64,000 nucleotides of DNA from Desulfobacca acetoxidans DSM 11109 (lineage in GTDB: Bacteria; Desulfobacterota; Desulfobaccia; Desulfobaccales; Desulfobaccaceae). Location of the stretch: assembly GCF_000195295.1 (NCBI RefSeq), contig NC_015388.1, forward strand, positions 62,001 through 126,000, given 5' to 3'. The notes beneath the pieces were generated by a model. It searched no databases. It was not told where the DNA came from and saw only the letters and a program-made list of their open reading frames with translations. Below are positions 1,672 through 63,223 of the stretch, piece after piece; position 1 is the stretch's first letter, and every line of letters begins with the position of its first letter. Made by a program: the position numbers and the translations under genes.

Positions 1672-1741
1672 GGGCTGACATGTGAATGGAATCACAATAA
1701 GACAGCGACAGCGCTTTGGCTGAAAGGGGAGGAAGGTCGTG

Positions 1742-3862: not shown

Positions 3863-3886
3863 TTGTGCGTATCCGGGAGAACAACT

Positions 3887-8950: not shown

Positions 8951-9052
8951 CGCGTCCTCCTGTTCAGGCAGGCCTTGAAGCCCCTCGGCACGTTGCCGCA
9001 AGACTGCCGGCCAGCATTGGCCCTTTTCCTGTTAAAAAGTTTTCCACCTCAC

Positions 9053-9607: not shown

Positions 9608-9624
9608 GAGGAATCTTCCTGAAA

Positions 9625-9975: not shown

Positions 9976-9988
9976 AAGTTACCTTATT

Positions 9989-32998: not shown

Positions 32999-33014
32999 TT
33001 CTTTAACCTTTGGG

Positions 33015-34462: not shown

Positions 34463-34471
34463 CGCTATCTC

Positions 34472-35362: not shown

Positions 35363-35364
35363 CT

Positions 35365-39334: not shown

Positions 39335-39354
39335 TGCTCATATCCTCCCATCAC

Positions 39355-39374
39355 GGGCGAGGCAAGCCTCGCCC
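39355..39374. repeat. Palindrome GGGCGAGGC-AA-GCCTCGCCC between cas2 and cas3'
   Basis: A perfect nine-base inverted repeat in the short gap between the cas2 stop and the cas3' start. An imperfect copy (GGGCGAGGC-AT-GCCTCAC, 39711-39728) lies just upstream of cas2. Both are of the dispersed REP-like kind and could form hairpins in the mRNA that tune the relative output of the adaptation and interference genes. Confidence 0.6.
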
Positions 39375-39389
39375 CTACAAATAATAACT

Positions 39390-39686
39390 TTAGAAAAACC
39401 TCGCCAACAACTCCTCATTCACCAATTTCGGGTCAAAACCCTGGCCCAGGACCTTGATCTTCCTGAAATCCTCCTGGCAGAAAGGGAAGAGATAAACGCT
39501 GTCAATGTCTTCATCAATTAGACTTTGGCATTTCACCGCCAGTTCATCGAAGCGAGACGCTTCCAGCTTTCCTAAAAAGGCGCTCTTCTGGACCCGTTCC
39601 AGACCGTATTGTTTACAGGCCTTGGAAACCCGGCTGCGGATTTTATCGTCACTGATATCGTAAAGGATCCAGACCAACACCGGCAT
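39390..39686 (-). CDS. cas2: CRISPR adaptation protein Cas2
   Basis: A 98-aa ferredoxin-fold protein from the ATG at 39686 (MPVLVWILYDISDDK), preceded by GAGGGAAAG. D10 is the conserved aspartate after the first strand. 'RVQKSAFLGKLEASRFDEL' is the conserved second half. It bridges two Cas1 dimers for spacer integration. Confidence 0.9.
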   Translation of the reverse strand: MPVLVWILYDISDDKIRSRVSKACKQYGLERVQKSAFLGKLEASRFDELAVKCQSLIDEDIDSVYLFPFCQEDFRKIKVLGQGFDPKLVNEELLARFF

Positions 39687-39770
39687 CTTTCCCTCAAGGC
39701 CGCCGCCAGTGGGCGAGGCATGCCTCACACTTACATAATGACGCTTTCCCTCTTCCCTCTTCCCTTTTCC

Positions 39771-40784
39771 CTAAATCTCTCTTATCTCCAGCCAATCCGG
39801 GCGCGGCTCCCCGGTTTCGGCCAAGAGTATATTGGCCAATCGATGGGCTTCGTGCTGGATAAGATAGCGCCGCTTGACGTTGCGCCGCCGGTAACGGACG
39901 CTCTCATCCAGGTGCTGCTGCATGGCAGCCACCACCACCGGCTTGCCTTCCTGGTTTAACGATACGGCGGTATCCTGAAAGTCGAAATAGGCATCTTTGA
40001 TCTTCTTGCCGGTAAACAGATAGACCGCGGTCTGTTCGGCAAACAGGCGGAAAGGCTCGATGAGATCAAAGACCAGGGATTTTTTATTGTAGTTGTCGGT
40101 GTGCAGAAAACCCACAAAGGGATCCAGTCCTGCCAGGATGCAGGCCTTTTCCACCATGGGGTAGAGCATGCCATAGCAATAGTTGAGACAGGCGTTGAAT
40201 GGGTCCAGGGCCGGGCGGCGGGATCGCCCCGGAAAGCGATATTTTTGGGGCAACACCCCGGAAAGGCACTGGAAATAGTGTCGGGCGGCCGTTCCTTCCA
40301 TACCCAAGAGACGCTGACGCACCGCTTCCAGATTCTGGTCCTTGGGGTTCAGATCAGACTTACAGTTTTCGATTTCTTTAAGGGGACCGAGAAAATTATC
40401 TTCCTGGCCAGGGCGGGCGTACATTAATTTTTTTAAGAAGGTAATCTGATTGGTCAACTTCTGCCGGACCATATCCAGAACCAGTGAAAGCCCTAGGGCG
40501 TTAGGCATAGCCTCTAACTGCCGCCGTCGGATCAGGGCGGTACTGCCCATTTTGCTAAACCAGACCCGGCCCACGGGGTCGCCGTAGCCGTCCAGAAAAA
40601 TGATATCGATATTGTGTTCCAGCGCCAGGACAATGGCTTGAGAGGAAATCATCGCTTGATTGGTAATAACGATGCTTTCCACTTTCAGGGGAGAGACATC
40701 CATCACCCTGTCCTGCAGTTTCAGGCGAAAACAGGCGTCTTTTTGGGTGATGAAAGAACCGGGAGTATTGATCACTAACTGCAA
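39771..40784 (-). CDS. cas1: CRISPR integrase Cas1
   Basis: A 337-aa Cas1 starting at a TTG (40784) after GAGGG. The metal-binding catalytic residues are E163 (LLGMEGTAARHY), H228 (VGFLHTDNYNK) and the acidic D240/E243 (VFDLIEPFRLF). 'NACLNYCYGMLYPMVEKA' is the conserved central helix. It is the first gene of the cas operon; the promoter should be in 40785-41050. Confidence 0.93.
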   Translation of the reverse strand: MQLVINTPGSFITQKDACFRLKLQDRVMDVSPLKVESIVITNQAMISSQAIVLALEHNIDIIFLDGYGDPVGRVWFSKMGSTALIRRRQLEAMPNALGLSLVLDMVRQKLTNQITFLKKLMYARPGQEDNFLGPLKEIENCKSDLNPKDQNLEAVRQRLLGMEGTAARHYFQCLSGVLPQKYRFPGRSRRPALDPFNACLNYCYGMLYPMVEKACILAGLDPFVGFLHTDNYNKKSLVFDLIEPFRLFAEQTAVYLFTGKKIKDAYFDFQDTAVSLNQEGKPVVVAAMQQHLDESVRYRRRNVKRRYLIQHEAHRLANILLAETGEPRPDWLEIREI

Positions 40785-45874: not shown

Positions 45875-47212
45875 TCAGGCGGTTCTTTGTTTTTTGCCTA
45901 TATAAAAGTATTCAAAGCCAAGTTGGGTAAGCTTCTGACAGTTATAGAGGTTGCGTCCATCAAAGATAACCGCTGTTCTGAGGCGCGACTTGAGGCGGTT
46001 AAAATCAGGGGTACGAAACATAGTCCAATCGGTGTTAATGATCAGGGCTGCCGCGTCGTCCACGGCTTCGTACATATCGGCGGCATAGCTTATAGCCGTA
46101 TTTGACACTCCGAAAAATTCCTGGGCCGCTTTCTGGGCCTGCGGATCATAGGCCTTAAACCGCGCCCCTTTCTCCATCAGGGCGTTGATGACGGTCAAGG
46201 CCGGTGCCTCCCGGATGTCATCCGTCCAGGGCTTAAAGGACAGGCCCCAAACACCGAATACCCGTCCTCGGAGATCATCATGAAAATAAGCGCTGATCAT
46301 ATCGATAAACAGTCGGCGCTGGTTCTGATTAATGGCCTCAGTAGCCTCGAGCAGCCTAGGGGTATAGCCTATTGTTTTGGCCGTCTGGATCAACTCCCGG
46401 ACGCCTTGGGAAAACCGCAGGCCGCCATAGCCTAGTCCAGGAAACAGAAAGAGATTGCCGATCCGGGAGTCAGAGCCGAGTCCCAGGCGGATGAGATTGA
46501 TGTCGGCGCCGGTGATAGCGCAGATGTTAGCTAATTCATTCATAAAAGAAATCTTGGTGGCCAGAAAGGCGTTTGCAGAGTATTTAATCAACTCTGCTGA
46601 AACAAGGTCCATGATGATGATCGGGCGGTTGGTCCGGACGAAAGGGGCATACAACTCCTTCATCAGTTCGGCTACCCGTTCATTATCGCAGCCGATGACG
46701 ATGCGGTCCGGCTTCATGAAATCTTCGATGGCAGTCCCCTGTTTAACAAACTCCGGATCTACCACAACGTCAAATTCGTACTCCACTCCCCGGACCGCCA
46801 ACTCCTGAGCAATGGTTTTTTGCAGCCGGGCCGCCGTGCCAACAGGAACATTGGACTTATTGACGATGACTTTATAGCCGTTCAGATGGCGGCTGATATC
46901 CTGGGCAACGGCGAGGTAATAGGTAATATCAGATAGTTCACCTTCTCTGTATATCGGACTCAGGGTTAGGTAACAGATGAGGCTATCCTCTACAGCTTTT
47001 GAGAGATTGGTGCTAAAAAACAATCGATTGCCCTTGCAATTACGGCGGATCAGATCCTCCAGACCTGGTTCATAGACTGAAAGGCGGTAGTGATCCAGGT
47101 TGTCGATCTTCTTTTCATCGAAATCAACGCAGATGACTTCGTTCCCCATTTCGGCAAAACAGGAGGCCGTTATTAGACCTATGTATCCTGCCCCGATGAC
47201 GGCTAATTTCAT
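45875..47212 (-). CDS. UDP-sugar dehydrogenase homologue with degenerate active site
   Basis: A 445-aa member of the UDP-glucose/GDP-mannose dehydrogenase family. It has an intact Rossmann start (MKLAVIGAGYIGLITASCFA) and keeps 'VVDPEFVKQGTAIEDF' (Glu), K210 and N214. The signature around the catalytic Cys has become 'GLGYGGLRFSQGVREL', so R266 replaces Cys, and the Asp four residues on is also lost. 'ICVGTPS' has become 'ICYLTLSP'. It cannot form the thiohemiacetal, so it is not a normal dehydrogenase. The frame is intact and long, which argues for a retained role (regulatory partner or altered chemistry). It is the last gene of the operon that also holds the active paralogue. Confidence 0.82.
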   Translation of the reverse strand: MKLAVIGAGYIGLITASCFAEMGNEVICVDFDEKKIDNLDHYRLSVYEPGLEDLIRRNCKGNRLFFSTNLSKAVEDSLICYLTLSPIYREGELSDITYYLAVAQDISRHLNGYKVIVNKSNVPVGTAARLQKTIAQELAVRGVEYEFDVVVDPEFVKQGTAIEDFMKPDRIVIGCDNERVAELMKELYAPFVRTNRPIIIMDLVSAELIKYSANAFLATKISFMNELANICAITGADINLIRLGLGSDSRIGNLFLFPGLGYGGLRFSQGVRELIQTAKTIGYTPRLLEATEAINQNQRRLFIDMISAYFHDDLRGRVFGVWGLSFKPWTDDIREAPALTVINALMEKGARFKAYDPQAQKAAQEFFGVSNTAISYAADMYEAVDDAAALIINTDWTMFRTPDFNRLKSRLRTAVIFDGRNLYNCQKLTQLGFEYFYIGKKQRTA

Positions 47213-47386: not shown

Positions 47387-48766
47387 CTACAAACGAGGAC
47401 CCGCCGGGACCCAGTCGATGGAGACCAATTGGAGTTCGCCGTTCTCTAAGACATCGACCGTTTTTTCAAATAACCTGTCCGCCTTGGAATCGTACAGTCC
47501 CGGGGTGATTGTTCCACCAACGATGATGCACTCATCGATTACCGATCCCTGGCGGACTTCATGCCTATCCACCAACTTCCGTTCCCGAACCGAGATCTTT
47601 TCGCCCTGTTTAGTAAAATAGGCATACCGCTTCCAGAGGACGGAATTGCTGATGCACACATCCTTTTCGATAGTCCAGCCATCACCAATGATCGCATAAG
47701 GTCCAAGTTTGGCGCCACGTTCAATAATACATTCATTGCCGATAATGACCGGAGGAATTATGGTCACTTCAGCAAAATTGATGACGGTGCCGCTGCCCAG
47801 ATAACCCCAGGGCAATTTCTGGTATGGCAGGTCAAGATGGATTTTGTTATCCAGCACTGATTTGTTGATAGACAGGTAATCCCGCTTGCGACCAACATCA
47901 TACCATAAGCCATCATAGCGGATACCCCACAGCAGATAATCTTTCGGCGGCTTAAAGTAGGCAAGTTTTCCTAACATGGCTGGAAAAACATGCTTGCCAA
48001 AATCATAAAACGGTTCCCGGACGTTGGGGTCCGCAGCAGTACGAAAAGGATCGAGTTTCTCCAATAATTCCATTTCAATGAAATAGACGGAGGCATTATT
48101 GAGGTTGCTGGGAGAGTCTGGATCTTTTTCAATAAAGTCGATGATGGGGCCGGATTCTGATAGCGGCCCGCGGGAACGCTCAGATTTGCCGAGTATGACG
48201 GTGCCGAATTCTTTGCGTCGCTTCCAGGGAATCGGCGCCAATAACATGGTGAAAGCGGCGCCCTGGCGCTTGTGAATTTCATACATCTGCTCAAGGAGTT
48301 CAACCCCAAAATTGGTGACGATATCACCACTGGGAGCGATGACAGTGGTTCCGGAAAATGCCGCCGTGGAGCCCATTATCTCATCGGCCAGAGTCTGTTT
48401 GGCCTCGGTCCCGAGTGCCTGTTTGCACACCCCTCCCAAGGTACCGCTGGGCCGGTCCTCTTCTATGTAGTTGATATCGGCGCCGAACAGCAGACCGTCT
48501 TTGAAATGTGATCTGATGGTTTCTTGCAGAACGCATAAGTTCATGGAGACATTAGTAATACCGGCCTCGACGGCGCGTCTGACCCAGATCTCCGCCATGG
48601 GCACGGTACCTCCCAAGGGAAACATGGGCTTGGGGAGATGATGTGTCGAAATCGGATCCATCCGCCTTCCCAAACCGGCCGCCAGGATGGTGAGTTTCAA
48701 CTGATCTTGCACCTGTTTGCGGACAGCCCAGGTGTTCTTTAGATAATTGTCGAGTTCAATGGGCAT
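47387..48766 (-). CDS. NDP-sugar nucleotidyltransferase with left-handed beta-helix
   Basis: A 459-aa protein. The N-terminal transferase has a variant of the GxGxR...PKP motif ('ILAAGLGRRMDPISTHHLPK', then PMFPLGG), 'EEDRPSGTLGGV' and 'GDIVTNFG' for nucleotide and metal. From about residue 315 hexapeptide repeats ('VIIGNECIIERGAKLGPYAI') form a beta helix as in mannose-1-phosphate guanylyltransferases and GlmU-like enzymes. It would make an activated sugar for surface glycan synthesis, in the same operon as UDP-sugar dehydrogenase. The sugar cannot be told from sequence. Confidence 0.78.
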   Translation of the reverse strand: MPIELDNYLKNTWAVRKQVQDQLKLTILAAGLGRRMDPISTHHLPKPMFPLGGTVPMAEIWVRRAVEAGITNVSMNLCVLQETIRSHFKDGLLFGADINYIEEDRPSGTLGGVCKQALGTEAKQTLADEIMGSTAAFSGTTVIAPSGDIVTNFGVELLEQMYEIHKRQGAAFTMLLAPIPWKRRKEFGTVILGKSERSRGPLSESGPIIDFIEKDPDSPSNLNNASVYFIEMELLEKLDPFRTAADPNVREPFYDFGKHVFPAMLGKLAYFKPPKDYLLWGIRYDGLWYDVGRKRDYLSINKSVLDNKIHLDLPYQKLPWGYLGSGTVINFAEVTIIPPVIIGNECIIERGAKLGPYAIIGDGWTIEKDVCISNSVLWKRYAYFTKQGEKISVRERKLVDRHEVRQGSVIDECIIVGGTITPGLYDSKADRLFEKTVDVLENGELQLVSIDWVPAGPRL

Positions 48767-48813: not shown

Positions 48814-50145
48814 TCAACCGACGAAAAAGTAAGTAAACCCCATTTCCCGCATTTTGGCCGGATCGTAAATATTACGGCCGTCAAAAACCACCGGGTTTTT
48901 CATCCGGGATTTTATCAGGTTCAGCTCCGCATTTTTGTATACCTCCCATTCCGTGTTGATAATCAAGGCTTCAGCTTTGGGCAGCGCCGCCTCCGGGAGG
49001 TCTGCATAAGTGATTCGGTCGCGGTTCGCATGCTTCCGGAAGTAAAATTGAACTTCTTTCATGGCTTCCGGGTCATGAACCGAAAGTTCCGCCCCCATCT
49101 CTAACAGACGCTCGATGATGGTTAAGGACGGGGCTTCCCGGATGTCATCGGTTTCCGGTTTAAAGGCCAGACCCCAGAGGGCCAGTTTTTTGCCTTCCAG
49201 ATTATTCTGGAAGTATCGGGTTATCTCTAAAATAAACCGGTGTCGCTGGGCCTGGTTTACTATTTCGGTGGCTTCCAGAATCTTAAAGTTGTAGGCCAAC
49301 GTCTGGGCGATGTAAACCAGTGCCTTGACGTCTTTCGGGAAACAGGAGCCGCCGTAGCCTAAGCCGGGATAGAGGAAGTGGGGGCCGATTCTCTTGTCAG
49401 AGCCCATACCTTTCTGGACGCTTTTTATATTGGCCCCGGTAAGGGCGCACAGATTGGCGATCTCATTAATGAACGAAATTTTGGTGGCCAGGAAGGAGTT
49501 GGCGGCATATTTGGTCATTTCGGCGGAAGGGACTTCCATGACAAAGAGCTCAAATTTTCCATCGGTCCATGGTTTGTAGAGCTCTTGCATGATACGCTCG
49601 GCTTCAGGACTTTCGACTCCCACAACGATGCGGTCCGGCCGCATGAAATCGTCAATGGCCGAGCCTTCCCGGAGAAATTCGGGGTTAGAGACCACGTCAA
49701 AAGTCAGGTTTGTCCCGCGTCGGGCCAACTCCTTGGCAATGAGCTGGCGCACCCGGGCGGCGGTGCCGACGGGAACGGTGGATTTGTCGACCACAATTTT
49801 GTATTCCTGCATGGTTTGGCCAACGCTTCGAGCCACTTCATAGACATACCGCAGGTCCGCCGAACCGTCCTCCCGGCTGGGCGTGCCCACGCAGATGAAA
49901 ATAACCTGGCTCTGGGAAACCGCCTGGTTCAGGTCGGTGGTAAAAGAGAGCCGGCCGGCCGCAACGTTGAGTTTGACATAGTCTTTCAGACCGGGTTCAT
50001 AAATGGGAATTTCAATTTCATTTTTACGCAAACCTTCGATCTTTTTGGAATCGATGTCCATGCAGATTACCTCATGGCCCGTCTGTGCAAAACAGGCGCC
50101 GGTGACCAGACCGACGTAGCCGACTCCAATCATGGCCAATTTCAC
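48814..50145 (-). CDS. ugd: UDP-glucose 6-dehydrogenase (active-site complete)
   Basis: A 443-aa enzyme that oxidises UDP-glucose to UDP-glucuronate with two NAD+. I start it at the GTG at 50145 (VKLAMIGVGYVGLVTGACFA), six bases after AAGGGAGAG; upstream codons in the same frame overlap the preceding gene. The key residues are present: 'ICVGTPS' (T88), Glu in 'NPEFLREGSAI', K212 and N216 in 'TKYAANSFLATK', and catalytic C268 with D272 in 'GYGGSCFPKDVKAL'. GDP-mannose dehydrogenase is an alternative. The start overlaps the previous stop. Confidence 0.87.
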   Translation of the reverse strand: MKLAMIGVGYVGLVTGACFAQTGHEVICMDIDSKKIEGLRKNEIEIPIYEPGLKDYVKLNVAAGRLSFTTDLNQAVSQSQVIFICVGTPSREDGSADLRYVYEVARSVGQTMQEYKIVVDKSTVPVGTAARVRQLIAKELARRGTNLTFDVVSNPEFLREGSAIDDFMRPDRIVVGVESPEAERIMQELYKPWTDGKFELFVMEVPSAEMTKYAANSFLATKISFINEIANLCALTGANIKSVQKGMGSDKRIGPHFLYPGLGYGGSCFPKDVKALVYIAQTLAYNFKILEATEIVNQAQRHRFILEITRYFQNNLEGKKLALWGLAFKPETDDIREAPSLTIIERLLEMGAELSVHDPEAMKEVQFYFRKHANRDRITYADLPEAALPKAEALIINTEWEVYKNAELNLIKSRMKNPVVFDGRNIYDPAKMREMGFTYFFVG

Positions 50146-51302
50146 AAATTCTCTCCCTTCGAAACATAATCTAAGCGGCGTTTCAGCCAACCGCGGCCAT
50201 CTTTGGGAAGACGCTGCTGAGCTTTCAGTTGGAATACCAGGATGCCGCCGCGAGGTTCTCGAAAATACCAATAATGATTCAGGTAGCTCCCCAACCAGAC
50301 ATCATAGAGAGCGCAACTACCTCCGGAATCCAGCAGTCCCGCGGTTTTTATCCCTTTAGCGGCCAACTTCCGAGCCAGGTCCGGCAATGTCCCTTCCGTC
50401 TGCCACAGGATAATCTGATTATCCTGATCCAGGGCTAGAATGCTATGGTAAAAGGTGGCAAAAGGGCGATTGCCGGCCTCATGTTGCGAAATAAGCCGGG
50501 CGACTCGTTCATCCCATTGGTCAGGCCAGCCCTCATAGACATATTCAATTGCCTCATCCTCGCCTCGGCCCACCACCTGGCGCAGGTCATAATCATATCG
50601 GGCAATCTTTACGGCGGATAATGGTCTTGAGTCTTCCACCAGTGGGACTAAGGCCGCAGCCCAGACCAGACCCCGGTCCATGAGATTATCCCCGTTGCCG
50701 GCATCAAAAACCAGGTCTTGGGAGGCATCAAAGCGTAGCCAGCGGAATTCCAAGCGGCATGAAGGCTCAGAAGTCTGGGCGCTGAAATAACAGATACACC
50801 AATACGTCTTTCGGTCTAGGGGTTCACCCTGCAAAAAAAAGAGGCGCTGCAGCCGAATGGCAGATGCGGTAACTGACTTCAGATCGTCGTAGGTGCGAAG
50901 GCCGTCCCGATGGAAGCAGGGCCGCAAAAGGTTGGCCACCGTATCGCTGATAGGGACAGCGAGCATGTACGGCTCTTGTTGAAAGGTCTCGCCGTTAAAA
51001 TTTTCCAGTCCCTGCCAATCGGGGAGGAGACCGGCGTTGTGCATTGCCTGCAGGTGCAGCGGAATCGGCAGTTTTGGCGGTTCCCCCTGGGCTTTTAACG
51101 GGTTATTCGGCCCAAGGGTGGACCCATTTTTAGGGTTTAACTCTCCCGGATAGGCTGGATGCCGCCGCATATAGAGGCCAGTCCGGTTGCGTTGCTCCGG
51201 ATAGGCAAGCTTTAAATGCACTACGGCTAATTCCTCTGACTTAATGATTACTTCAGCTCGGCGGCCGTTTTGGCTAGCGGCGCCAATTTCCAGTTCTAGC
51301 TT
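50142..51302 (-). CDS. Unknown protein, C-terminus resembling NAGPA phosphodiester glycosidases
   Basis: About 386 aa from the ATG at 51302 (MKLELEIGAAS); a TTG at 51344 is also possible and neither has a good ribosome-binding site. There is no signal peptide. The C-terminal 120 residues ('FATFYHSILALDQDNQIILW', 'LARKLAAKGIKTAGLLDSGG', then SCALYDVWLG) follow the order of the NAGPA domain, where an 'LDGGGS' loop forms the active site; here it is LDSGGS. NAGPA-type proteins act on sugar phosphodiester bonds in exopolysaccharide biology. The first 260 residues are unassigned. It overlaps ugd, which supports a glycan role. Confidence 0.5.
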   Translation of the reverse strand, partial: KLELEIGAASQNGRRAEVIIKSEELAVVHLKLAYPEQRNRTGLYMRRHPAYPGELNPKNGSTLGPNNPLKAQGEPPKLPIPLHLQAMHNAGLLPDWQGLENFNGETFQQEPYMLAVPISDTVANLLRPCFHRDGLRTYDDLKSVTASAIRLQRLFFLQGEPLDRKTYWCICYFSAQTSEPSCRLEFRWLRFDASQDLVFDAGNGDNLMDRGLVWAAALVPLVEDSRPLSAVKIARYDYDLRQVVGRGEDEAIEYVYEGWPDQWDERVARLISQHEAGNRPFATFYHSILALDQDNQIILWQTEGTLPDLARKLAAKGIKTAGLLDSGGSCALYDVWLGSYLNHYWYFREPRGGILVFQLKAQQRLPKDGRGWLKRRLDYVSKGENL

Positions 51303-51713
51303 CATCAGGATGCTTTCAGCAATATTGATGCCAGGAGAATGCAATCCCGGGAGTTAATTTCCTGAACCTACCAGGGGACGCTAGAGCAGTTCTCATTCGG
51401 CAATTAGTTAGCAGTTTATTGATTATTTTGAGAACAAAGTATCAATGATTGGTTATGACAATAAGTCAAATATTTGTCAATATAATAAATTATTGCTAAA
51501 TTGTCAATGCTCTTTTTCCGTTTCGACACTTTCGCCAAGAAATCAGGCAAGATCATTCTCTCATTGAGATAGAAAGCGGGAAGGGTAGTCCTGACATCCC
51601 AGCCTCAACACTTAGAAGAGTCTATGATTCTGAGGATTTGAGGAACTTCGATTTCCTCGGGATGACAGAAAAAACCGGTTTTGCAATAGCCTTTCGGCTT
51701 TTTCTTAAAAAGG
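51303..51713. other. Gap between the NAGPA-like gene and the ROK-fusion gene
   Basis: About 410 A+T-rich bases. An inverted repeat AATAGCCTTT / AAAGGCTATT (about 51685-51718) reaches into the ROK-fusion stop codon and could form a hairpin at the mRNA end, though without a T tract. No ORF is seen; a promoter for the downstream four-gene set (51302 to 45875) probably lies here. Confidence 0.4.
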
Positions 51714-54700
51714 CTATTTTCGGCGGCGAACCACCTGCATCGACCAGCGGGTGTATTTGGCCGGGCCGGATCGATAATAACCCAGATCAGCAGCATATTT
51801 TTTAAAATAATTTTCGACATCTTTTGGAGTCAAGGCATATTCTAATAGTTCGATAGTATTCTTTCCGTTCGGTTCGAAAGAAATCTCATTAGAACCAATG
51901 GTCGCGGTACCATTTGGGCCCAGTCTCATAAGAACCTGTTCCAATTTGATTAAACCCTGTTCCTTAAGGTCCTGGAGAAATCCGGTGGCAGCATGGACGG
52001 CGGCGCCGAGTGTGCCTAAGTTAAATATTTTTCCTCCTGCTGGCGGATTCGGTTTCTCAATCTTGAGGTTTCCTATTCCATAGAGCAGGACTCTCTCTCT
52101 GGCGATCTTAATTGCCTGATCGCCAATTTTTCCACTCAGAATGCCCCCGCCTAGCACAACTTCGTTCATCTGATACAGGTCGTATAACAATGCGATTAAG
52201 TCTCCCAAATAATAACCGAACTTCTCTGCCAAGGACTCTACAAATTTTCCCGCTCCTTTCAGCTTCTCAAATTTTGTCGGATCATCTGCATTATCCGGCA
52301 GATCTAGAAGCGTGGCTATCCGCCAGGTTCCACGTTTCTCAATTTCTTCATCAAGTCTTTCCATGCCCTTCTTGTCTTGGGCGCGATAATACTTTCCAAT
52401 CGGAGCAAAAAACCGACCTTTTAATACGCTCTCTGACTCAGTCTGTTTCCTAACCCATCGTATAAGTTCTGCGTCGAATTCAAGGTTTGGTAGGGCCGCT
52501 AGATCCCTTAAGCCACATTCTTGGCGCAACTCTCGAGTGAAATTATCAAAACCGCATCTACTGTTGGGATCGGGTATTTGCTGACTTAAAGTCAAAATCA
52601 GGTCAAGTTCTTTGGGATTAAGCTTTTCGACCTGGAAAAATCGGCCGATCTCATGCATATACTTTGTGATAAGATTTGCCATGGTGTTTTGTGACAGGTA
52701 TGGGTTTGCCACCCCCTGGGGGAAATCCTGACCAACAGAAGCCGCGGCCGGAGCATGAATATCCAGGAGGATTTTTCCCCATTCATTCAATCCGGGTTCT
52801 ATTCGACCACCGGTAAATACCGCTCCCGCAGTGCCAGTGCCGATCTTAATAACCACCAGTTTTTGGTTTTTATCTTCTTCTCCTTTTGAATTTTTCTGCA
52901 ATTCCGGATCTTTTTGGAAATAATCCACGGCGCCCATGCCATCGGCATCACCGTCGTTGATAAGTCTTACTGAGGTTACATCGGCAAGCCATCTGAAAAC
53001 ATCTCCTTTCGAACTACATTTTTCCCGCCATATTTTTTGGAAATTACCGGCTACCTCAAGATTCATGATATCCTGGATTTGATTTTCGACGATCTTACCG
53101 GTTAAAGGAGGAAAATTTCTGAGGATACCACTCGTGCCGGCAACGAGATTATAACGCACCGGTCCAGGCCAGGAGATACCTATTCCAAGGAGTTTCCTCG
53201 GTTTTTTATCGGATGATTTCTGTTGGTGGCTCTTGAGAAATTCGCTATTTTCAAGAAAAAGAACCATCTGATCGATGAGTGAACGAAGCCATTCTCCAAT
53301 AGGCTCTTTTTTCGCATTAGAAACCGGCATGGCCGTGGATAACCGAAAGGATTCACTCTCTTCCTTGAAGGCGGACCGACCGTCGGCATGAATAAAATCA
53401 AATGTATAAAAATGGATTTTGATATTTGTTCCGCCGATATCAATCCCGAGGGAATATGGTTCTTCATTTCTCGGTTCGAAGTAAGTCTTAAGTTCTTTGG
53501 AAGTAGCGGCGATTCCGGGAGGGGTTAAAGGCGACGGCCGCAGGAATGGCAACGGTTGAACATTTGTATGGGCGCTATAATAGTCCCGGAGGTATTTTTC
53601 TTCTAACAAGGCATAGCAATTTTCTTGGCAGGCCTCATTAATCCGCTCTTTCCATGCCTCAGGAGTCATTAAATCATGTCCATTTCGGCATCTTCCATTA
53701 ATATTCCCATCCAATTCTCCCAGACCGAGCTCACAACCAAGGAACCCCCTGGAGACGCCTTGATTCAATACCATGGCGTGAACGTAATGAGAGATTAAAC
53801 TTATTTCGTCTTCGTTACATTTTGGGCAGAGATCTTTAGGAATAGAGATAATCTCTTGACTCAAACTATCGTCTACACCCTTATAAGTTATAGGGAGGCA
53901 CAAACAAGTTTCCGGTCGCAAACGATATACCGTATTGAGAAGTCTACGCAGGAGCGGAAATGGAAAGTAAAATTTCTGGCCTTTATGCAGTGCCAGCTTT
54001 TCTAATTGAAAATCTTCCTTGGCTCGCCTGAAGAGATGACAGAATAAAGACGCCGCCGACTCTTCTGGGAGAGGATTCTGCTGTCCGTCATCTTCCTTAC
54101 AATCATTGAATAATAGAAGTTCAGCGGCAATGACATCCCTCAGACGAACCTCAATAACCAATTCTTTGTTAGCTGCGGCATCAAAACAATTTGGCACGTC
54201 AATTTTTCTGAAATCGAAAAATTTAGGAAAATCAGATTCATTTCTTACCTTTTCAATATATTTTGGGATAAAATCCCTTAAGTCTTTGGCTTGATCCCGT
54301 CCAAAGGTAAATGAAATGCTATGATAGCGAGATTCTTTTTTTATTTCTTCTTCTTCTGTTATTTTCTCTACTGTATCTTTAAATCTATTTAGGTCGTCCG
54401 GTTTTATATTAAAAGCTGTAGTAAATCCCCAGGTATATGTTGGTCTTTTTATAGAGGGTTTGTCTGGACCTGGATAGTCTTTTATTTCATAGATTTCCTC
54501 GGCACTGAAAATCGCTTTAGCGTGTCGGATAAGATTAAATTCAGACCTCCCGATAATTACTGCAATCAAATCGCCCCGCAAATGTGAATGCCTCAGCCTC
54601 AAATCATCTTCCAAATGATCTTTATTTCGGTAGATTTTAAAGAGCGAGGCCAAAGAATATTTTTTTATATCATCTCTGCTCAGAAGGAAACAGGTTGCTT

Positions 54701-55544
54701 CCCCCCATTTCCGATCCACATCGGCGTTTACCGGCAAATTATTAATGACCCAGGTTTTATCATTCCCTGGGAGCATGTGATTCCTGGCCTCGTGGACTAC
54801 GCCGATGAGGTTGAGAGTATTTAATATTGAATTTTTACCTAACTCAAAACTATCTTCATATTTTCGGCATTGATCTGTGAAACTGACATCTCCGGTAAAC
54901 CGGGCATATTGCCCCGGAGACGATTGATAGCGGATAAAAAGGGTCACCAGGTCTACCACAGATTTTGGTATGTTAGGCAGGCGGCTGTCGAGTTCTTCCC
55001 GAGCGCGGGCGGCGCTATAGGCTTCCCAGAAAACCGGGCGGAAAAATTCAATCTGGGACAGGGCCAAAGACATGACCAACAACAATCCCATAGAAACCTT
55101 AACGTGAGGTTCACCTTCCAGATCAAGATGAATTTCAGTTAGTTTATCGAGGGCTTTTGCTAGATCGGCACAACCTTCGACAATATATTGAGCCGATCCT
55201 TTAAGTTTATCTTCTAGATACTTTTCATTCTTCCCGTCATGCACTTTTGAAAAAAGGGCCTTGAAATATAATAACAGGCGGAGAGTTCGAGCCAGGGCTG
55301 TCTTCCCTTCCAGCCGCATCTCGTACAAACCCTGAGATACATTTTTCAGTGGCTCCCCCTGGCTCAGGGCATCAATCCAGTGGTCGATTTCAGCCAAGAT
55401 TTTTTCTCTTTCATCAACCAAGTGATAAAAATCGCCCATTTCTGTACACAAAACGCCTTTGTAGGCCTCTCCCTCTTCGCGTACTACAACTAAGCGAAGA
55501 ATGTCCTTTTTATGATTGTTGAGCAAATGTTCAATAGTATTCAT
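51714..55544 (-). CDS. Giant fusion: unassigned ~690-aa region plus ROK-like sugar kinase
   Basis: A 1276-aa protein from the ATG at 55544, seven bases after AAGGG. Residues 1 to about 690 are mostly helical and match no family I know; near 600-650 they carry 'LCPKCNEDE' and 'GRCRNGHDL', a possible zinc site. From about 700 a ROK/ASKHA kinase follows: 'YSLGIDIGGTNIKIHFY' (phosphate 1), 'VRLINDGDADGMGAVDYF' with the catalytic-Asp motif near 863, 'VVIKIGTGTAGAVFTGGRIE' (phosphate 2), 'GLNEWGKI' and 'EVVLGGGILSGKIGDQAI' (adenosine). The ROK zinc motif CxCGxxGC is missing. ROK proteins are usually 300-400 aa, so this architecture is unusual. Upstream of glycan genes, it may phosphorylate a sugar. 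Confidence 0.72.
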   Translation of the reverse strand: MNTIEHLLNNHKKDILRLVVVREEGEAYKGVLCTEMGDFYHLVDEREKILAEIDHWIDALSQGEPLKNVSQGLYEMRLEGKTALARTLRLLLYFKALFSKVHDGKNEKYLEDKLKGSAQYIVEGCADLAKALDKLTEIHLDLEGEPHVKVSMGLLLVMSLALSQIEFFRPVFWEAYSAARAREELDSRLPNIPKSVVDLVTLFIRYQSSPGQYARFTGDVSFTDQCRKYEDSFELGKNSILNTLNLIGVVHEARNHMLPGNDKTWVINNLPVNADVDRKWGEATCFLLSRDDIKKYSLASLFKIYRNKDHLEDDLRLRHSHLRGDLIAVIIGRSEFNLIRHAKAIFSAEEIYEIKDYPGPDKPSIKRPTYTWGFTTAFNIKPDDLNRFKDTVEKITEEEEIKKESRYHSISFTFGRDQAKDLRDFIPKYIEKVRNESDFPKFFDFRKIDVPNCFDAAANKELVIEVRLRDVIAAELLLFNDCKEDDGQQNPLPEESAASLFCHLFRRAKEDFQLEKLALHKGQKFYFPFPLLRRLLNTVYRLRPETCLCLPITYKGVDDSLSQEIISIPKDLCPKCNEDEISLISHYVHAMVLNQGVSRGFLGCELGLGELDGNINGRCRNGHDLMTPEAWKERINEACQENCYALLEEKYLRDYYSAHTNVQPLPFLRPSPLTPPGIAATSKELKTYFEPRNEEPYSLGIDIGGTNIKIHFYTFDFIHADGRSAFKEESESFRLSTAMPVSNAKKEPIGEWLRSLIDQMVLFLENSEFLKSHQQKSSDKKPRKLLGIGISWPGPVRYNLVAGTSGILRNFPPLTGKIVENQIQDIMNLEVAGNFQKIWREKCSSKGDVFRWLADVTSVRLINDGDADGMGAVDYFQKDPELQKNSKGEEDKNQKLVVIKIGTGTAGAVFTGGRIEPGLNEWGKILLDIHAPAAASVGQDFPQGVANPYLSQNTMANLITKYMHEIGRFFQVEKLNPKELDLILTLSQQIPDPNSRCGFDNFTRELRQECGLRDLAALPNLEFDAELIRWVRKQTESESVLKGRFFAPIGKYYRAQDKKGMERLDEEIEKRGTWRIATLLDLPDNADDPTKFEKLKGAGKFVESLAEKFGYYLGDLIALLYDLYQMNEVVLGGGILSGKIGDQAIKIARERVLLYGIGNLKIEKPNPPAGGKIFNLGTLGAAVHAATGFLQDLKEQGLIKLEQVLMRLGPNGTATIGSNEISFEPNGKNTIELLEYALTPKDVENYFKKYAADLGYYRSGPAKYTRWSMQVVRRRK

Positions 55545-55566
55545 CACTCAGCCCTTCGCAAAACAT

Positions 55567-56244
55567 TCAATGCTTCTCATCGGACTTTGGTAATGGACTC
55601 TGCCCGGGCGAGGTTTGCATCAACCATAACGACAGCGTTCCCGTCAAGAGATACCTATGCAATCGCTGTTCATTGATCCAACAGACCCAAAATGCTAGGG
55701 CAAAAAAAACCGCTAAAAGTCGCCTCTCCGATGGAGAATTAGAGTAGTAGAAGAGATTCATAATAAATAAGAGAATAAAGCCTACCATCAGAACCTGGCA
55801 CAGCCGACGCTCAGCCCGGATTTTTAAGAGTCTGGGGACTTGGGTGGGCAGGATTATTCTCAGGTGATCTCGAATCACAAAGTCGCGAGGGAGGTCGGCG
55901 GGATTGATTGTTAAAGGAGGATAATTTAGTAGGCATAATAACTTATTATGTTCGGCAAGACATTCTTCTCGACATCTCTCTTCAAGCAGATCATACCTTT
56001 TGGCATTCATCAAGCCGATAGAAACCTCAAATAATCGGCCGGCAATCAACCCGGTGAAGTATGAGATCAGGATGACAAGGAGTAAATGATAAGGGGAAAA
56101 GAGGCTTACGGCCTGATTCGTAGTGAGAAATGTTGCCGTGTCCGAAGGTCCGAAAATTACCAGTACCAAACCTAAAAGTAGGATGGCGCCAGGAACAATA
56201 CGTGCCAGAAAGTCGTAGAAAAGCTGAGGAATCAACGTCCACAT
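55567..56244 (-). CDS. Four-helix membrane protein of unknown function
   Basis: About 225 aa from the ATG at 56244 (MWTLIPQLFYDFLAR); GGAG lies nine to twelve bases upstream. Two N-terminal helices (VPGAILLLGLVLVIFG; LLLVILISYFTGLIAGRLF) and two C-terminal helices (QVLMVGFILLFIMNLFYY; LLAVFFALAFWVCWI) flank a cytoplasmic-type segment of about 75 residues rich in charge and cysteine (EERCREECLAEHNKLLC). It lies 23 bases before the ROK-fusion gene and is surely cotranscribed, so it may anchor it. No family is recognised. Confidence 0.65.
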   Translation of the reverse strand: MWTLIPQLFYDFLARIVPGAILLLGLVLVIFGPSDTATFLTTNQAVSLFSPYHLLLVILISYFTGLIAGRLFEVSIGLMNAKRYDLLEERCREECLAEHNKLLCLLNYPPLTINPADLPRDFVIRDHLRIILPTQVPRLLKIRAERRLCQVLMVGFILLFIMNLFYYSNSPSERRLLAVFFALAFWVCWINEQRLHRYLLTGTLSLWLMQTSPGQSPLPKSDEKH

Positions 56245-56863: not shown

Positions 56864-59800
56864 ATGGTTTCAAGAGAGAAGGTTAGGCGGCAATGGTTGC
56901 CGAGTATCCTGCTGGCCACCTGTGTTTTCTTAGGGTGTCTACCGTCTGTCGGTTGGGCTCAAGTGAGTTATTCCTGGATCGGCGGTCCCGGCACCCAGGA
57001 TTGGGGCAATGCGGCTCATTGGTCTCCCAGCACCCCTCCGGGTCCTCCCAATGCAGGGGACAGCGCTTTACTCTATGTGGGCGACGACAGTACGAAGGTG
57101 GCGAATTACTATAATATATTTGCCGAAGCCCCCCTTCTGGGCGGGGTCTATATCAACTCCGGACCTGCGGGGAGTATGACCCTCCTGCTGGAGCAGGCCG
57201 GTCTGGCTGGGCAACTGCGGGCAAATGAAGTCATTGTGGGGGACAAGGTACAGGGTCAAGTCGAACAGAGGGATGGAACCCTAACCGTGGCGGGGACCCT
57301 AGATATAGGTAATCCTGTCGGCAGTAATGGAACTTATACTATGACTGGCGGCGTTCTAGATACCGCCAATACGTATGTGGGGAATTTCGGTACCGGCGAT
57401 TTTTACCAAAATGGCGGCGCCCACACCGTGGCCAACGAATTGAACCTGGGTTACCAGGCAGGCAGCAACGGCACATATAACCTGGAAGGCGGCACGGTTA
57501 ACTCGCAACTACTCTTTGTCGGATATAATGGCGGGGGTGTCTTTCACCAAAACGGCGGGGACGTCGTTATTATTGACCATCTGGGGGTAGGTCGGGAGGC
57601 GGGCAGTACCGGTGAATATAATTTAAACAACGGTACCTTCACTACCTCAAACCTTTATGTGGGCTATGGCGGCACCGGTACCTTCAATAAGAATGGCGGT
57701 ACCCTCACCGTTAACGGCTTCATTTCCATGGCCGAAACAGCTACAGGCAATGCCATCTTTAATCTGGGCAGCGGCAGTCTGGCGGCTACCAACCTGGATG
57801 TCGGCCTGAATGGAGTGGGCGAATTTAATCAGAGCAGCGATACAACCCTGACGATCGGTTCCGGCGCCGCCTTTGGAATCTTGGGAGTCAACAGCCAGGC
57901 TGGAGTCAGTATATTTAATCAGCATGGCGGTGACACCACCGTCTTCGGCAATATCGAAGTGGGTCGGGAAACCAACAGTCAGGGGCAATACTACCTGCAC
58001 GGCGGCACCTTGACCGTCCACGATAGTCTCTATCTCGGGTATCAAGGTACCGGTATGTTCACTCAGACGGCTGGAACCCTCACAATTGCCAACTATATCA
58101 ATCTGGGTGACCGGCCGACTGGCAATGGCGTCTACAATCTGGAGGGCGGCAGCGTTACCGCTCAAGATCTTTTTGTGGGGACGGCCGGAGTTGGCCTCTT
58201 TAACCAATCAGGGGAGACCTCAAACGCCACCTTTAATAATAGTCTCAACCTGGTAAACGGCATATATGACCTGAGCGGCGGCAACCTTATCGCCCACAAT
58301 ATCAATGTCGGGGATGGCGGTACCGGGACCTTCAATCAATCGGGCAGTTCCACCGTGACCATCAGTAATTATCTGGGAATCGGCAGAAACGCCGGCGATA
58401 TCGGAACTTTTGAACTGACCAGCGGCACGGTCTCCTTTTCTCCGGCACCCGGTGCGATTGGCACGATGTTTTTGGGGGTAGCCGGCTCCGGAGTCTTCAA
58501 TCAATATGGCGGCACGGTTGACCTAACCGGGGGGACGCTTCAGATAGGGGTCGAAACAGGCGGTATCGGAACCTACAACCTGAGTGGCGGTCAACTCCAG
58601 GTCGGGACTCTTGATCTGGCAGTGGTTGGCCCCGCTACTCCCGGTACCGGCGTCTTTAACCTGTCCGAAACGGGAATTCTGACCGCTGAGACCATCAACC
58701 TGAATCCGGGAGGAACCTTCAATCAGACCGGCGGCACCCTGAATTATACCACCTTCAACCACCAGGGCGGCGATGTCCTGGGCGATCTGGAGAACCGCGG
58801 CGCCTATAACTATACCGGGGGGACTTTTTCCGGCCGTTTGCTGAACTTTGGCACCGTCAATTTCGCCGCCGATTTTACCGCAGGAAATGGCATGGCGCAC
58901 CTGGGCGCCGTACCTGTGACTTTGGACGGTGTTCTTAATGTTACCTGCAACGGCCTGGGGCTGGAGGTGGATCAAGGCGCCGTCTTTAATCAAACCGGTG
59001 GCACCCTCACCTCCACCGATACCATCATTGGCAACACCGGTGAAGGCACCTTTAATCAGAGCGGCGGAACGCACACGGTAGCCAATCCGACAACCCTCAT
59101 CCTGGGGGCCGCGGAATACAGCATCGGGACTTATAATCTCGAAAATGGCATCTTGCAGACCAATAATACAATTGTGGGGAATTTCGGCTCCGGCATTTTC
59201 AACCAGACGGGCGGCAGCCATAACGTCACCAATGATCTAAGCCTGGGCCGGGAGTTATTTAGTGATGGCATTTACAGCCTGGAAGGCGGCACGCTTTCGA
59301 CCCTCAACACCTACCTGGGATACGCTGGCATTGGCGGCTTCCAACAGACGGGCGCCGATACCGTCCACACCGTCGGCAATGCCCTGGTCTTGGGGCAAGA
59401 GCTTGGCGGCGCCGGCGCTTATAGCCTGGAAAATGGCCAGCTTAACACCGCTTATACCATGGTGGGCATAAACGGGCCCGGGGCCTTCCAACAGATTGGG
59501 GGCACCCATACCATCACCCTGGGGATGGGTCTGGCCGCTATCGTTGATACCAGCTATGGCGTGTACGAGCTTCAAAACGGCAACCTGATCATTACCGGGG
59601 TGCCGGCTACCTCAACCGGTGGATTCCTGGATATCGGCGAGACCGGCGAAGCAGCTTTTTCGCAGACCGGCGGTACCCTCCAGGTTTACGGGTCCATGAA
59701 CCTTGGTGTTTATGCCGGGAGCCTGGGTGAATATCAGATAACCGGAGGCACCCTGGAGGTGCTCAACGCCTACGTGCCGCCCAATCCCGATCCGGTTATC

Positions 59801-62800
59801 TACGGCGATATGTTTGTGGGGGACAACGGCACCGGCATCTTTACTCAATCAGGAATCAATACCACGGTTACGGTAAATAACCACCTGGGCATAGGTCGGG
59901 GACAAGCCGGTCAGGGAGAGTACAACCTTGATGGCGGGCAACTGACCACCGGCTATCTCTTCGTAGGCAATCAGGGGACCGGCGTCTTCAACCACGGGGC
60001 CGCAACCCACACCATTACCGGCAGCGGCTATGTAGGCAGTGATACCACCGGCACTGGCATCTATAATTTGAATCAGAACGGTATCCTGAATGTCACTGAT
60101 TCATTCGAGGTTGGCAACCCCGGCACCGGCACTTTCAATCAGTATGCCGGCTCCACTTTCACGACCGGCGCTCTTTTTGTAGGGGATGGCGTCGGTTTCT
60201 ATAACCAGTATGGCGGTGACACCACGGTAGCCGAACATTTAGGGGTCGGCCGCAGCGCCGGGGGGAATGGGCAATATCTCCTGCAGGGTGGAAACCTGAC
60301 AGTGGGAGACCTCTTTGTGGGCTATGAGGGTACCGGCACCTTCCGCCAGACGGGCGGCACCCACCAGGTAAATTGTTGTATTCATATCGGTCATGAAAAT
60401 ACCGGCATCGGCACCTACCTACTTGAAAATGGTAATCTCTTCGGGCAGCACACCCACGTGGGTATCAACGGAACCGGCATTTTCAGCCAGTCGGGCGGGA
60501 TCCATACCCTGACCGGGGATCTAACCCTGGCGGCGAATCCCGGCAGTCAGGGGACCTATAATCTGACCGGTGGAGACCTGACCGCAGCCAACATCTTCCT
60601 GAACGCCGGGGGGCTCTTTAACCAGACCGGCGGCAATCTCGCTTATACCACCTTCTATCATCAAGGCGGGGAGGTGCAGGGCAACCTGGTAAACCAGAGC
60701 GCCTATATCTACGACGGCGGTTTATTTAGCGGCCGTCTGCTGAACTATGGGGCGGGGACTGTCACCTTCAATGCCGACTTTATTGCGGCCGATGGCCTAG
60801 CCCACCACTCCAGCAACGCTATTACCCTGGCTGACAACCGCAGCCTTACCTTCAACGGCCAGGGTCTGACGGTGGATCAAGGGGCAATTTTTAACCAAAC
60901 CGGCGGCAGTCTGAACACGACCGACAGCATTATCGGCAACGCCGGGGTCGGAACCTTTGATCAGACCGGCGGCAGTCACACCATAAGCAACGCTCTGACC
61001 CTGGCTGCTACCGCGGGCAGCACCGGGACTTATAATCTTCAGGGAGGCACGCTTACAGCACCGGCAATCAATGTCAATGCGGGCGGGACGCTCAATCAGA
61101 CCGGAGGCACCTTGATACCTACCAATGCGTGCAGCATTGCACCCGGCGGCAGCTTCTCCCAAACCGACGGCATTGTCGACGGCACTAGCAACACTATCTT
61201 TCTTACCGAAGGAACGTGCACCCTCTCCGACAACGGCACCTTGAGACCCGGCGGCATCATGCGTATAGCTCCCGGCGGTTCATTTACCCAAAACGGTGGC
61301 ATCCTCGACGGTCTCAGCAACACCACCTTGATCACCGAAGGTATTTTCAATCTCAATAACGGCACCGTCAGACCGGGTAATGCCCTGGTAATCCAGAACG
61401 GTGGCGTTTTCAACCAGCTCGCGGGTCTGTTTGATGGGACAAGCAATACTATTTCTATCTTTGCAGGAACCTGTACCCTAGGTGGCGGAACGTATAACGC
61501 CGGAACCCTAAACCTATATACCGGAGGCAGTTTCCACTGGAATGGAGGAGATTTTAGTTACAATACCTTAAACCTGCAAGGTGGCAATTTCTATGGCGAT
61601 CTAAATAACCTTAACTTAATCAGCGGCTACGGGACAATTACCGGTAATGTCACCAACCAGGGTAATGTCAGTCCCGGTAACTCGCCCGGTGTCTTGAATA
61701 TCGTTGGCAGTTTCACTCAGACCGCCGCCGGTACCTATATCACGGAGATAGCTTCGGCCACCAGCTATGATCAGATCAACGTTACTGGCAACCCTGGTAC
61801 GGCTACTGTCGATGGTACCCTGACACCGGTATTGCTGGGAGGCTACACCCCGAGCTGGAATCAGGTATTTCCGGGAATAGTCAACGCTTCCGGCGGGGTG
61901 TTCGGGACTTTCAGCGACATTGATTCAATCCTCACTTGGAGAGTGCGGTATAACCAGACCAGCATCGACCTGATTGCCGGGAATCGCAACTTTGCCGACC
62001 CGGCCTTTCACCTGACGCCCAACCAATTAAATGTGGGGAATATGCTCAATCAGATTGCCGACACTGCTACCGGCGACCTGGGGGTCGTGTTGACCAACTT
62101 GGCGGAACTGCCTGACAATGCCGTGGGCAGCGCCTACCAGCAGATCACCCCGGACAAGGCCAGCACCCTGCCAGCACTAAGCCTGGCCGGCTCCATGATG
62201 CAGGGGCAGTCGATAGCCAATCGCCTGAGCTACCAACGCTGGCGGCAGGGGGGCTCGCCCACCCTGGCTGGAGGACGTCCGGGCTCCTTTAACCTGTCAT
62301 ACAACAATCTGGCCGGACTAATGCTGGCCTATAACAGCGCTGACCTCAGCGGGCTGATGAGCAGCTCCCGGATGCAGCCCGGATCCAGCGGCAATTGGGG
62401 CTTCTTCACCGATTTTGTCTCCTCCTTTGGGAAACAGGACACCACCACTGACCAGATCGGCTATGATTTTTCCATCTTCGGCTTCACTACCGGGATCGAC
62501 TACCGGTTCCGGGAAGATCTGGTCCTGGGCCTGGGAACGGGCTATTACCATACCGGGGCAACGTATAAGGGTTCCGGCGGCGACGCCGACATCAACAGCA
62601 TCCCCTTCTATGCCTACGGGGCCTTTACCCCTGGTTCATTTTACGCTCAGGGGTATGTCGGCTACACCCTCAACCTTTATAGTATGAACCGGGATTTTGT
62701 CTTCGGCGGCATTAACCGGCGGGCTACCAGTTCAGTCAATGGCAACCAGCTTAATGTTTCTCTCGAAACCGGCTATGATGTCAAACTGCCGTTTGCCACC

Positions 62801-63223
62801 ATGACGCCGGCGGCCTCGTTATACTACTCCCAGGCCTGGGTGGACGGCTTCACCGAAACGGGCGCCGGGGCTTTGAATCTAAGCGTTGACTCCCAAAGTG
62901 CCGATTCGCTTCAGACCGGGGTGGGGATGCGGCTGTCCCGCACCATCAAGACCAAGAAGGCCGTGGTGCTTCCCCAGGTCTATGCCTTCTATCAACATGA
63001 ATTTGCCAATGACAGTCGGGGATTAAACTCCCGCCTGGCCCAGACCGGCAATACCTTCCTCTTCCGGACCAATTCTCCCTCTCGGGATTTCGCCGTGCTG
63101 GGGGCCGGTCTGGCGGTGGGCTTGAAGAAGAACCTCACCCTGCAGGTCAATTACAACGCCGAAGTAGGCCGGGGAGACTACACCCCTCATGTCGTCAGCG
63201 CCGGCCTGCGTTTTGAATTTTAG
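56864..63223 (+). CDS. Type V autotransporter with beta-helical repeat passenger
   Basis: A 2119-aa secreted surface protein. The ATG follows GGGAGGGGGAGG by a few bases. The signal peptide ends near 'GWA' (residue 32). The passenger (about 33-1760) is made of tens of imperfect units of roughly 40-45 residues containing 'GTGTFNQSGG', 'LGVGREAGSTGEYNL' and 'GGTLTV', the pattern of an autotransporter right-handed beta helix. Cysteine is nearly absent. The last 290 residues are a 12-strand autotransporter barrel ('GFTTGIDYRFREDLVLGLG') ending in 'VVSAGLRFEF', the C-terminal Phe signal for outer-membrane insertion. It is probably an adhesin or biofilm factor. Confidence 0.9.
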   Translation: MVSREKVRRQWLPSILLATCVFLGCLPSVGWAQVSYSWIGGPGTQDWGNAAHWSPSTPPGPPNAGDSALLYVGDDSTKVANYYNIFAEAPLLGGVYINSGPAGSMTLLLEQAGLAGQLRANEVIVGDKVQGQVEQRDGTLTVAGTLDIGNPVGSNGTYTMTGGVLDTANTYVGNFGTGDFYQNGGAHTVANELNLGYQAGSNGTYNLEGGTVNSQLLFVGYNGGGVFHQNGGDVVIIDHLGVGREAGSTGEYNLNNGTFTTSNLYVGYGGTGTFNKNGGTLTVNGFISMAETATGNAIFNLGSGSLAATNLDVGLNGVGEFNQSSDTTLTIGSGAAFGILGVNSQAGVSIFNQHGGDTTVFGNIEVGRETNSQGQYYLHGGTLTVHDSLYLGYQGTGMFTQTAGTLTIANYINLGDRPTGNGVYNLEGGSVTAQDLFVGTAGVGLFNQSGETSNATFNNSLNLVNGIYDLSGGNLIAHNINVGDGGTGTFNQSGSSTVTISNYLGIGRNAGDIGTFELTSGTVSFSPAPGAIGTMFLGVAGSGVFNQYGGTVDLTGGTLQIGVETGGIGTYNLSGGQLQVGTLDLAVVGPATPGTGVFNLSETGILTAETINLNPGGTFNQTGGTLNYTTFNHQGGDVLGDLENRGAYNYTGGTFSGRLLNFGTVNFAADFTAGNGMAHLGAVPVTLDGVLNVTCNGLGLEVDQGAVFNQTGGTLTSTDTIIGNTGEGTFNQSGGTHTVANPTTLILGAAEYSIGTYNLENGILQTNNTIVGNFGSGIFNQTGGSHNVTNDLSLGRELFSDGIYSLEGGTLSTLNTYLGYAGIGGFQQTGADTVHTVGNALVLGQELGGAGAYSLENGQLNTAYTMVGINGPGAFQQIGGTHTITLGMGLAAIVDTSYGVYELQNGNLIITGVPATSTGGFLDIGETGEAAFSQTGGTLQVYGSMNLGVYAGSLGEYQITGGTLEVLNAYVPPNPDPVIYGDMFVGDNGTGIFTQSGINTTVTVNNHLGIGRGQAGQGEYNLDGGQLTTGYLFVGNQGTGVFNHGAATHTITGSGYVGSDTTGTGIYNLNQNGILNVTDSFEVGNPGTGTFNQYAGSTFTTGALFVGDGVGFYNQYGGDTTVAEHLGVGRSAGGNGQYLLQGGNLTVGDLFVGYEGTGTFRQTGGTHQVNCCIHIGHENTGIGTYLLENGNLFGQHTHVGINGTGIFSQSGGIHTLTGDLTLAANPGSQGTYNLTGGDLTAANIFLNAGGLFNQTGGNLAYTTFYHQGGEVQGNLVNQSAYIYDGGLFSGRLLNYGAGTVTFNADFIAADGLAHHSSNAITLADNRSLTFNGQGLTVDQGAIFNQTGGSLNTTDSIIGNAGVGTFDQTGGSHTISNALTLAATAGSTGTYNLQGGTLTAPAINVNAGGTLNQTGGTLIPTNACSIAPGGSFSQTDGIVDGTSNTIFLTEGTCTLSDNGTLRPGGIMRIAPGGSFTQNGGILDGLSNTTLITEGIFNLNNGTVRPGNALVIQNGGVFNQLAGLFDGTSNTISIFAGTCTLGGGTYNAGTLNLYTGGSFHWNGGDFSYNTLNLQGGNFYGDLNNLNLISGYGTITGNVTNQGNVSPGNSPGVLNIVGSFTQTAAGTYITEIASATSYDQINVTGNPGTATVDGTLTPVLLGGYTPSWNQVFPGIVNASGGVFGTFSDIDSILTWRVRYNQTSIDLIAGNRNFADPAFHLTPNQLNVGNMLNQIADTATGDLGVVLTNLAELPDNAVGSAYQQITPDKASTLPALSLAGSMMQGQSIANRLSYQRWRQGGSPTLAGGRPGSFNLSYNNLAGLMLAYNSADLSGLMSSSRMQPGSSGNWGFFTDFVSSFGKQDTTTDQIGYDFSIFGFTTGIDYRFREDLVLGLGTGYYHTGATYKGSGGDADINSIPFYAYGAFTPGSFYAQGYVGYTLNLYSMNRDFVFGGINRRATSSVNGNQLNVSLETGYDVKLPFATMTPAASLYYSQAWVDGFTETGAGALNLSVDSQSADSLQTGVGMRLSRTIKTKKAVVLPQVYAFYQHEFANDSRGLNSRLAQTGNTFLFRTNSPSRDFAVLGAGLAVGLKKNLTLQVNYNAEVGRGDYTPHVVSAGLRFEF

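Follow-up and report, generated by a model that had tools for sequence, protein, structure and literature searches.

A divergent ROK/hexokinase-type kinase and a NAGPA-like neighbour as a possible two-gene module in Desulfobacca acetoxidans

ROK kinases are typically, though not universally, marked by an ExGH motif together with the zinc/sugar motif CxCGxxGCxE, and the Asp of their ND motif is the established catalytic base. The ROK kinase domain can also form the C-terminal part of a longer polypeptide, as in GNE, the animal UDP-GlcNAc 2-epimerase/ManNAc kinase. We describe here a protein of D. acetoxidans, encoded within a 64,000-nucleotide stretch (the window) of a genome that consists of a single contig of 3,282,536 bp, which to judge from its sequence is an unusually long protein with a divergent kinase domain in its C-terminal half. 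The C-terminal placement of the ROK domain is like that in GNE, and the fold matches to the low-confidence predicted structure include the kinase part of GNE (2yhw, Z 16.5; 3eo3), but sequence searches with Pfam and NCBIfam find no UDP-GlcNAc 2-epimerase domain in the N-terminal part. ROK repressors such as Mlc and Lmo0178 likewise have a module ahead of the ROK domain, whereas that of the window protein is about 690 residues long and contains no HTH domain detectable by Pfam or NCBIfam. Compared with ROK kinases and hexokinases (PF00480 and PF00349; glucokinase 2qm1), the protein shares the DxGxT, PG, ND, GTGxxG and GG motifs, and its low-confidence predicted structure resembles theirs; it differs from ROK kinases in lacking CxCGxxGCxE, in having ExGK in place of ExGH, and in carrying a large insert and 500-700 extra N-terminal residues.

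The 1276-aa reading frame given in the preliminary description is real, and lies on the minus strand, which was missing there (Table 1). The gene extends from ATG 55544 to a TAG ending at 51714, the length of 1276 aa being counted from this ATG; an in-frame GTG at 55547 offers an alternative start upstream, and residue numbers are counted from that GTG. The GC content of the gene is 0.435 and its GC3 0.421. Two distant relatives are present in other families of the same phylum, in genomes G210 (1111 aa) and G512 (1247 aa); both have the same layout, with 500-600 residues ahead of the kinase, and the G512 member carries a C-terminal NUDIX domain. The known members are these three proteins, all from one sampled phylum.

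Table 1. Features of the ROK-fusion locus, with positions in the window.
Feature	Position	Strand	Basis
1276-aa ROK-fusion protein	51714..55544	-	ORF listing, translation; GC, GC3
N-terminal part without detectable relative, residues 2-521	53985..55544	-	library, PDB and viral-contig searches
Segment weakly common to both relatives, residues 525-646	53610..53975	-	hhalign
Divergent ROK/ASKHA kinase domain (predicted), residues 695-1190	51978..53465	-	Pfam ROK, motif alignment, Foldseek/VIA matches
225-aa membrane protein, directly upstream	55567..56244	-	hydropathy; stop 22 bp before ROK ATG
Promoter-like site TTGACA-17-TATATT	51479..51507	-	consensus scan only, 11/12
387-aa partner, NAGPA-like C-terminus	50142..51305	-	Pfam, PDB profile search, hhalign, homologues beside relatives
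UDP-glucose/GDP-mannose dehydrogenase (UGD1)	48814..50145	-	Pfam UDPG_MGDP_dh domains; active-site GGSCFPKD
Sugar-phosphate nucleotidyltransferase, hexapeptide repeats	47387..48766	-	Pfam NTP_transferase E 2.5e-21
Second UGD-like protein without catalytic Cys	45875..47212	-	Pfam; motif GGLRFSQG vs GGSCFPKD

The ROK-family motifs phosphate-1 DxGxT, catalytic ND, phosphate-2 GTGxxG and adenosine GG are present in the window protein (DIGGTNI at 703, INDGDA at 863, GTGTAG at 903 and VVLGGG at 1130). When the window protein is aligned to a canonical ROK kinase encoded at one of the related loci, D703-x-G, W-P-G 793-795, N864-D865, G903-T-G-T-A-G, E922 and the terminal GG are retained, and N864-D865 and both phosphate loops, including GTGTAG, are kept in all three members. 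Pfam ROK scores 23.2 bits at residues 889-933 (E 5.7e-5), just above its threshold of 22.9, and Pfam hexokinase gives a weak match to residues 694-794, while both relatives score below the PF00480 cut-off. An AlphaFold model of residues 690-1195 is of low confidence (pLDDT 44.2, pTM 0.47); this low-confidence model matches the ROK glucokinase 2qm1 with a Foldseek E of 6e-8 and a VIA Z of 16.8 (rmsd 5.2 over 265 residues), and the Foldseek and VIA matches listed for it are almost exclusively ROK kinases, ROK repressors and hexokinases. All the motifs quoted in the preliminary description are found, and by the Pfam score and these model matches the ROK domain is above chance.

The domain nevertheless departs from canonical ROK kinases, with which it is compared above. 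The canonical zinc motif is absent, as had been claimed, with no CxCGxxGC in the window protein and no CxCxxGC in any of the three members; a canonical ROK control in L006 carries CYCGRQGCVE. That control matches the PROSITE ROK signature, and none of the three members does. ExGH is represented by E922-W-G-K925, all three members keeping the Glu but having Lys where the His would stand, and the large insert lies inside the kinase domain at residues ~935-1105.

The region ahead of the kinase, which had been described as some 690 unassigned residues, falls into no known family by sequence, but it is not a single conserved unit because only residues ~525-646 resemble the relatives. Residues 2-521 have no match in Pfam, NCBIfam, PADLOC, PHROGs or PDB and no relative among the viral contigs searched, such that the first 520 residues appear so far to be unique to the window protein. 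Residues 525-646, which read YFPFPLLRRLL ... VDDSL ... NQGVSRGF, align with the profile of the relatives with an hhalign score of 31.8 (the best of 300 shuffles scores 27.7), and HMMER comparison of the whole N-terminal region with the relatives gives nothing that exceeds shuffles. The N-terminal parts of the G210 and G512 members are 41% identical to each other. AlphaFold applied to residues 1-690, with three sequences, gives a pLDDT of 31.6. A candidate Cys4 site proposed earlier (C574, C577, C605, C620) was rejected, the cysteines not being conserved in the two relatives.

Relatives are rare, with 2/395 and 2/389 genomes containing them, and searches of plasmids, phages and viral contigs found no copy. 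Scans of genome contigs with a few short peptide patterns found no related loci, and as these scans are the sole coverage of phyla beyond that of the window they are a weak test of absence. A weak match in G777 (E 5e-4) is to an ORF that appears ParB-like by eye and is without the kinase motifs, and was rejected. A literature search for the domain combination seen here returned nothing relevant. In all of the three genomes the kinase gene has the highest AT content among its neighbours or comes close to it; this GC drop may partly reflect protein composition, although GC3 drops as well.

Homologues of the 387-aa protein encoded next after the ROK-fusion gene are adjacent or close to the kinase gene at all three loci. 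In G210 the homologue (317 aa) precedes the kinase gene with 11 bp between them, and in G512 it is three positions upstream. Each of the two genes is found in 2 of the 395 genomes of the phylum sample, and these are the identical two (chance 1.3e-5). The likely start of the window partner is ATG 51305, with an in-frame TTG at 51344. Its likeness to the NAGPA phosphodiester glycosidases (PF09992) spans ~45-80 residues at the C-terminus, where the elements D-x-G/N ... G-x-L-x-D-L-A ... LD-x-G-x-S are shared in register. The Pfam NAGPA match of 16.0 bits (E 0.014) is below the 25-bit cut-off, the two best PDB matches to a profile of the three partner proteins are NAGPA structures (E 0.026), and hhalign aligns the partner in register with a profile of 30 NAGPA family members of the same phylum (probability 83, score 45.5; best of 300 column shuffles 25.3). 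In contrast to the NAGPA family, the partner has an extra N-terminal region, shows no hydrophobic N-terminal segment, and has an altered LDGG motif, which is LDSGGS in the window and LDNSGS in the partners of the relatives; LDGG is present in most NAGPA family members of the phylum. Because LDGG is altered and the likeness is short and below the Pfam cut-off, the partner is possibly not catalytic, and the altered motif and the lack of a hydrophobic segment make both activity and secretion doubtful; we infer that it is a cytosolic protein.

In the window, the partner gene is separated from the ROK-fusion gene by a 369-bp gap containing a promoter-like site, and its TGA overlaps the GTG start of UGD1 by 4 bp (GTGA). 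The ROK-fusion gene and the membrane-protein gene upstream form one composition unit, unlike that of the NAGPA-like gene, and the ROK-fusion and NAGPA-like genes may be separate transcription units. The second UGD-like protein is, from its motif, probably a pseudoenzyme beside an intact UGD1. Elsewhere in the window there is a type I CRISPR-Cas set at 32357-40784 on the minus strand (Cas4, Cas5, DevR/Cas7, Cas3 and Cas1 by Pfam, no Cas2 noted), whose genes are mostly AT-rich, and at 56864-63223 on the plus strand a 2119-aa repeat protein ('GTGTFNQSGG...') that by eye is autotransporter-like with a C-terminal barrel.

The preliminary description had linked the kinase to the upstream membrane protein and to the glycan-precursor genes that follow, as a possible new regulatory or metabolic kinase system for surface polysaccharide. 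The membrane protein is present 22 bp from the ATG, but it has no relative in 297 genomes of the phylum and has no counterpart next to either kinase relative, and its role as a component of the system is not supported. Attention shifts instead to the NAGPA-like gene, which is the conserved partner. Nucleotide-sugar genes do lie downstream, although the immediately following gene is the NAGPA-like one, and neither the G210 nor the G512 locus shares the glycan genes. The G210 pair forms a low-GC3 islet between transporter and cytochrome genes (GC3 0.405 and 0.585; most genes around it have 0.65-0.78, and one AAA gene has 0.577). Of the preliminary description, the odd ROK-like kinase and the nucleotide-sugar genes downstream are supported; the link to surface polysaccharide holds in the window alone.

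The neighbourhood in G512 contains a CofD/nucleotidyltransferase fusion, a radical SAM gene, a ThuA gene and an RtcR-like MBL-AAA gene. In L006, an 884-aa RtcR-like protein (1734-4388, minus strand) has a sigma54-type AAA domain and an MBL-like N-terminal part that replaces CARF (the MBL match is weak, E 0.085), a 751-aa protein (6305-8560, plus strand) is a CofD domain/nucleotidyltransferase fusion, and a 520-aa protein (8761-10323, plus strand) that carries HETGH and matches no Pfam family is possibly a zinc peptidase. For the CofD/nucleotidyltransferase fusion beside the G512 member, G000 and G210 have only partial matches, which cover its nucleotidyltransferase part and lie away from the locus.

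The reading that we favour, at a probability of roughly 0.45, is a rare and probably mobile two-gene module in which a kinase of the ROK/hexokinase class and a NAGPA-like partner act on a sugar, sugar phosphate or nucleotide sugar. The large protein would be a small-molecule kinase with variable N- and C-terminal additions. Using D865 as the base, it would most likely phosphorylate a sugar, a sugar phosphate or a similar sugar compound with the gamma-phosphate of ATP, and the partner would make, cleave or bind a phosphate-linked sugar. In D. acetoxidans the module may feed or control the downstream nucleotide-sugar genes for UGD1 and the nucleotidyltransferase. This is the best-supported reading because its parts share sugar-phosphate and nucleotide-sugar chemistry, to which the NUDIX domain of the G512 member and the UGD and nucleotidyltransferase genes of the window also belong. 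Against it count the missing ROK signature and zinc site and the Lys at one sugar-contacting His position, the short, sub-threshold NAGPA likeness with its altered LDGG, the unconserved glycan genes, and the differing base composition of the two genes in the window.

The main rival is a role in defence or conflict, with a variable N-terminal sensor joined to an effector that alters the nucleotide or sugar-nucleotide pool; the NAGPA-like protein would serve as its partner or confer immunity. The patchy spread of the module, how strongly it has diverged, its variable ends and the low GC that the kinase gene shows in each of the three genomes would suit such a role, as would the CRISPR-Cas genes 11 kb off in the window and, in G512, the RtcR-like MBL-AAA gene nearby and the resemblance of the NUDIX part to the phage-defence candidate PDC-S07 (E 5e-5). 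Yet PADLOC has no match for the window kinase and NAGPA-like proteins, the only match among window proteins being an insignificant one of the membrane protein to Csx27 (E 0.17); the plasmid, phage and viral-contig searches gave no copy, no known defence genes were noted around the G210 locus, and a survey of conflict systems mentions neither ROK nor NAGPA (PMC7159879). No direct evidence for a defence role was found, and we judge it unlikely. We consider it distinctly improbable that the giant ROK-type kinase, with its variable sensor N-terminus, and the NAGPA-like partner are a two-component conflict or signalling system that makes or removes a signal in the form of a phosphorylated sugar or a nucleotide sugar.

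As doubtful as the defence role is a sugar-sensing regulator, in which the ROK domain would bind sugar and ATP and signal through the N-terminal part by analogy with the ROK repressors. The repressors 5f7r, 1z6r and 1z05 are among the structural matches of the low-confidence model, the zinc site is lost with the His changed to Lys, and the same cluster holds a catalytically altered UGD paralogue; however, none of the three members has lost the catalytic Asp or either phosphate loop, and no HTH domain was found. Least probable of all is that an ordinary ROK kinase has diverged and gained its N-terminal addition by chance, its neighbours being functionally unrelated. The rarity of relatives and the first 520 residues, for which no relatives were detected, would fit such an origin, but the layout and the partner gene recur in both relatives, which belong to other families of the phylum. 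If the kinase and its NAGPA-like partner do work as a unit, they would add to the ROK-type kinases a branch not described before, which has a partner of its own and is known so far from three genomes of one phylum.
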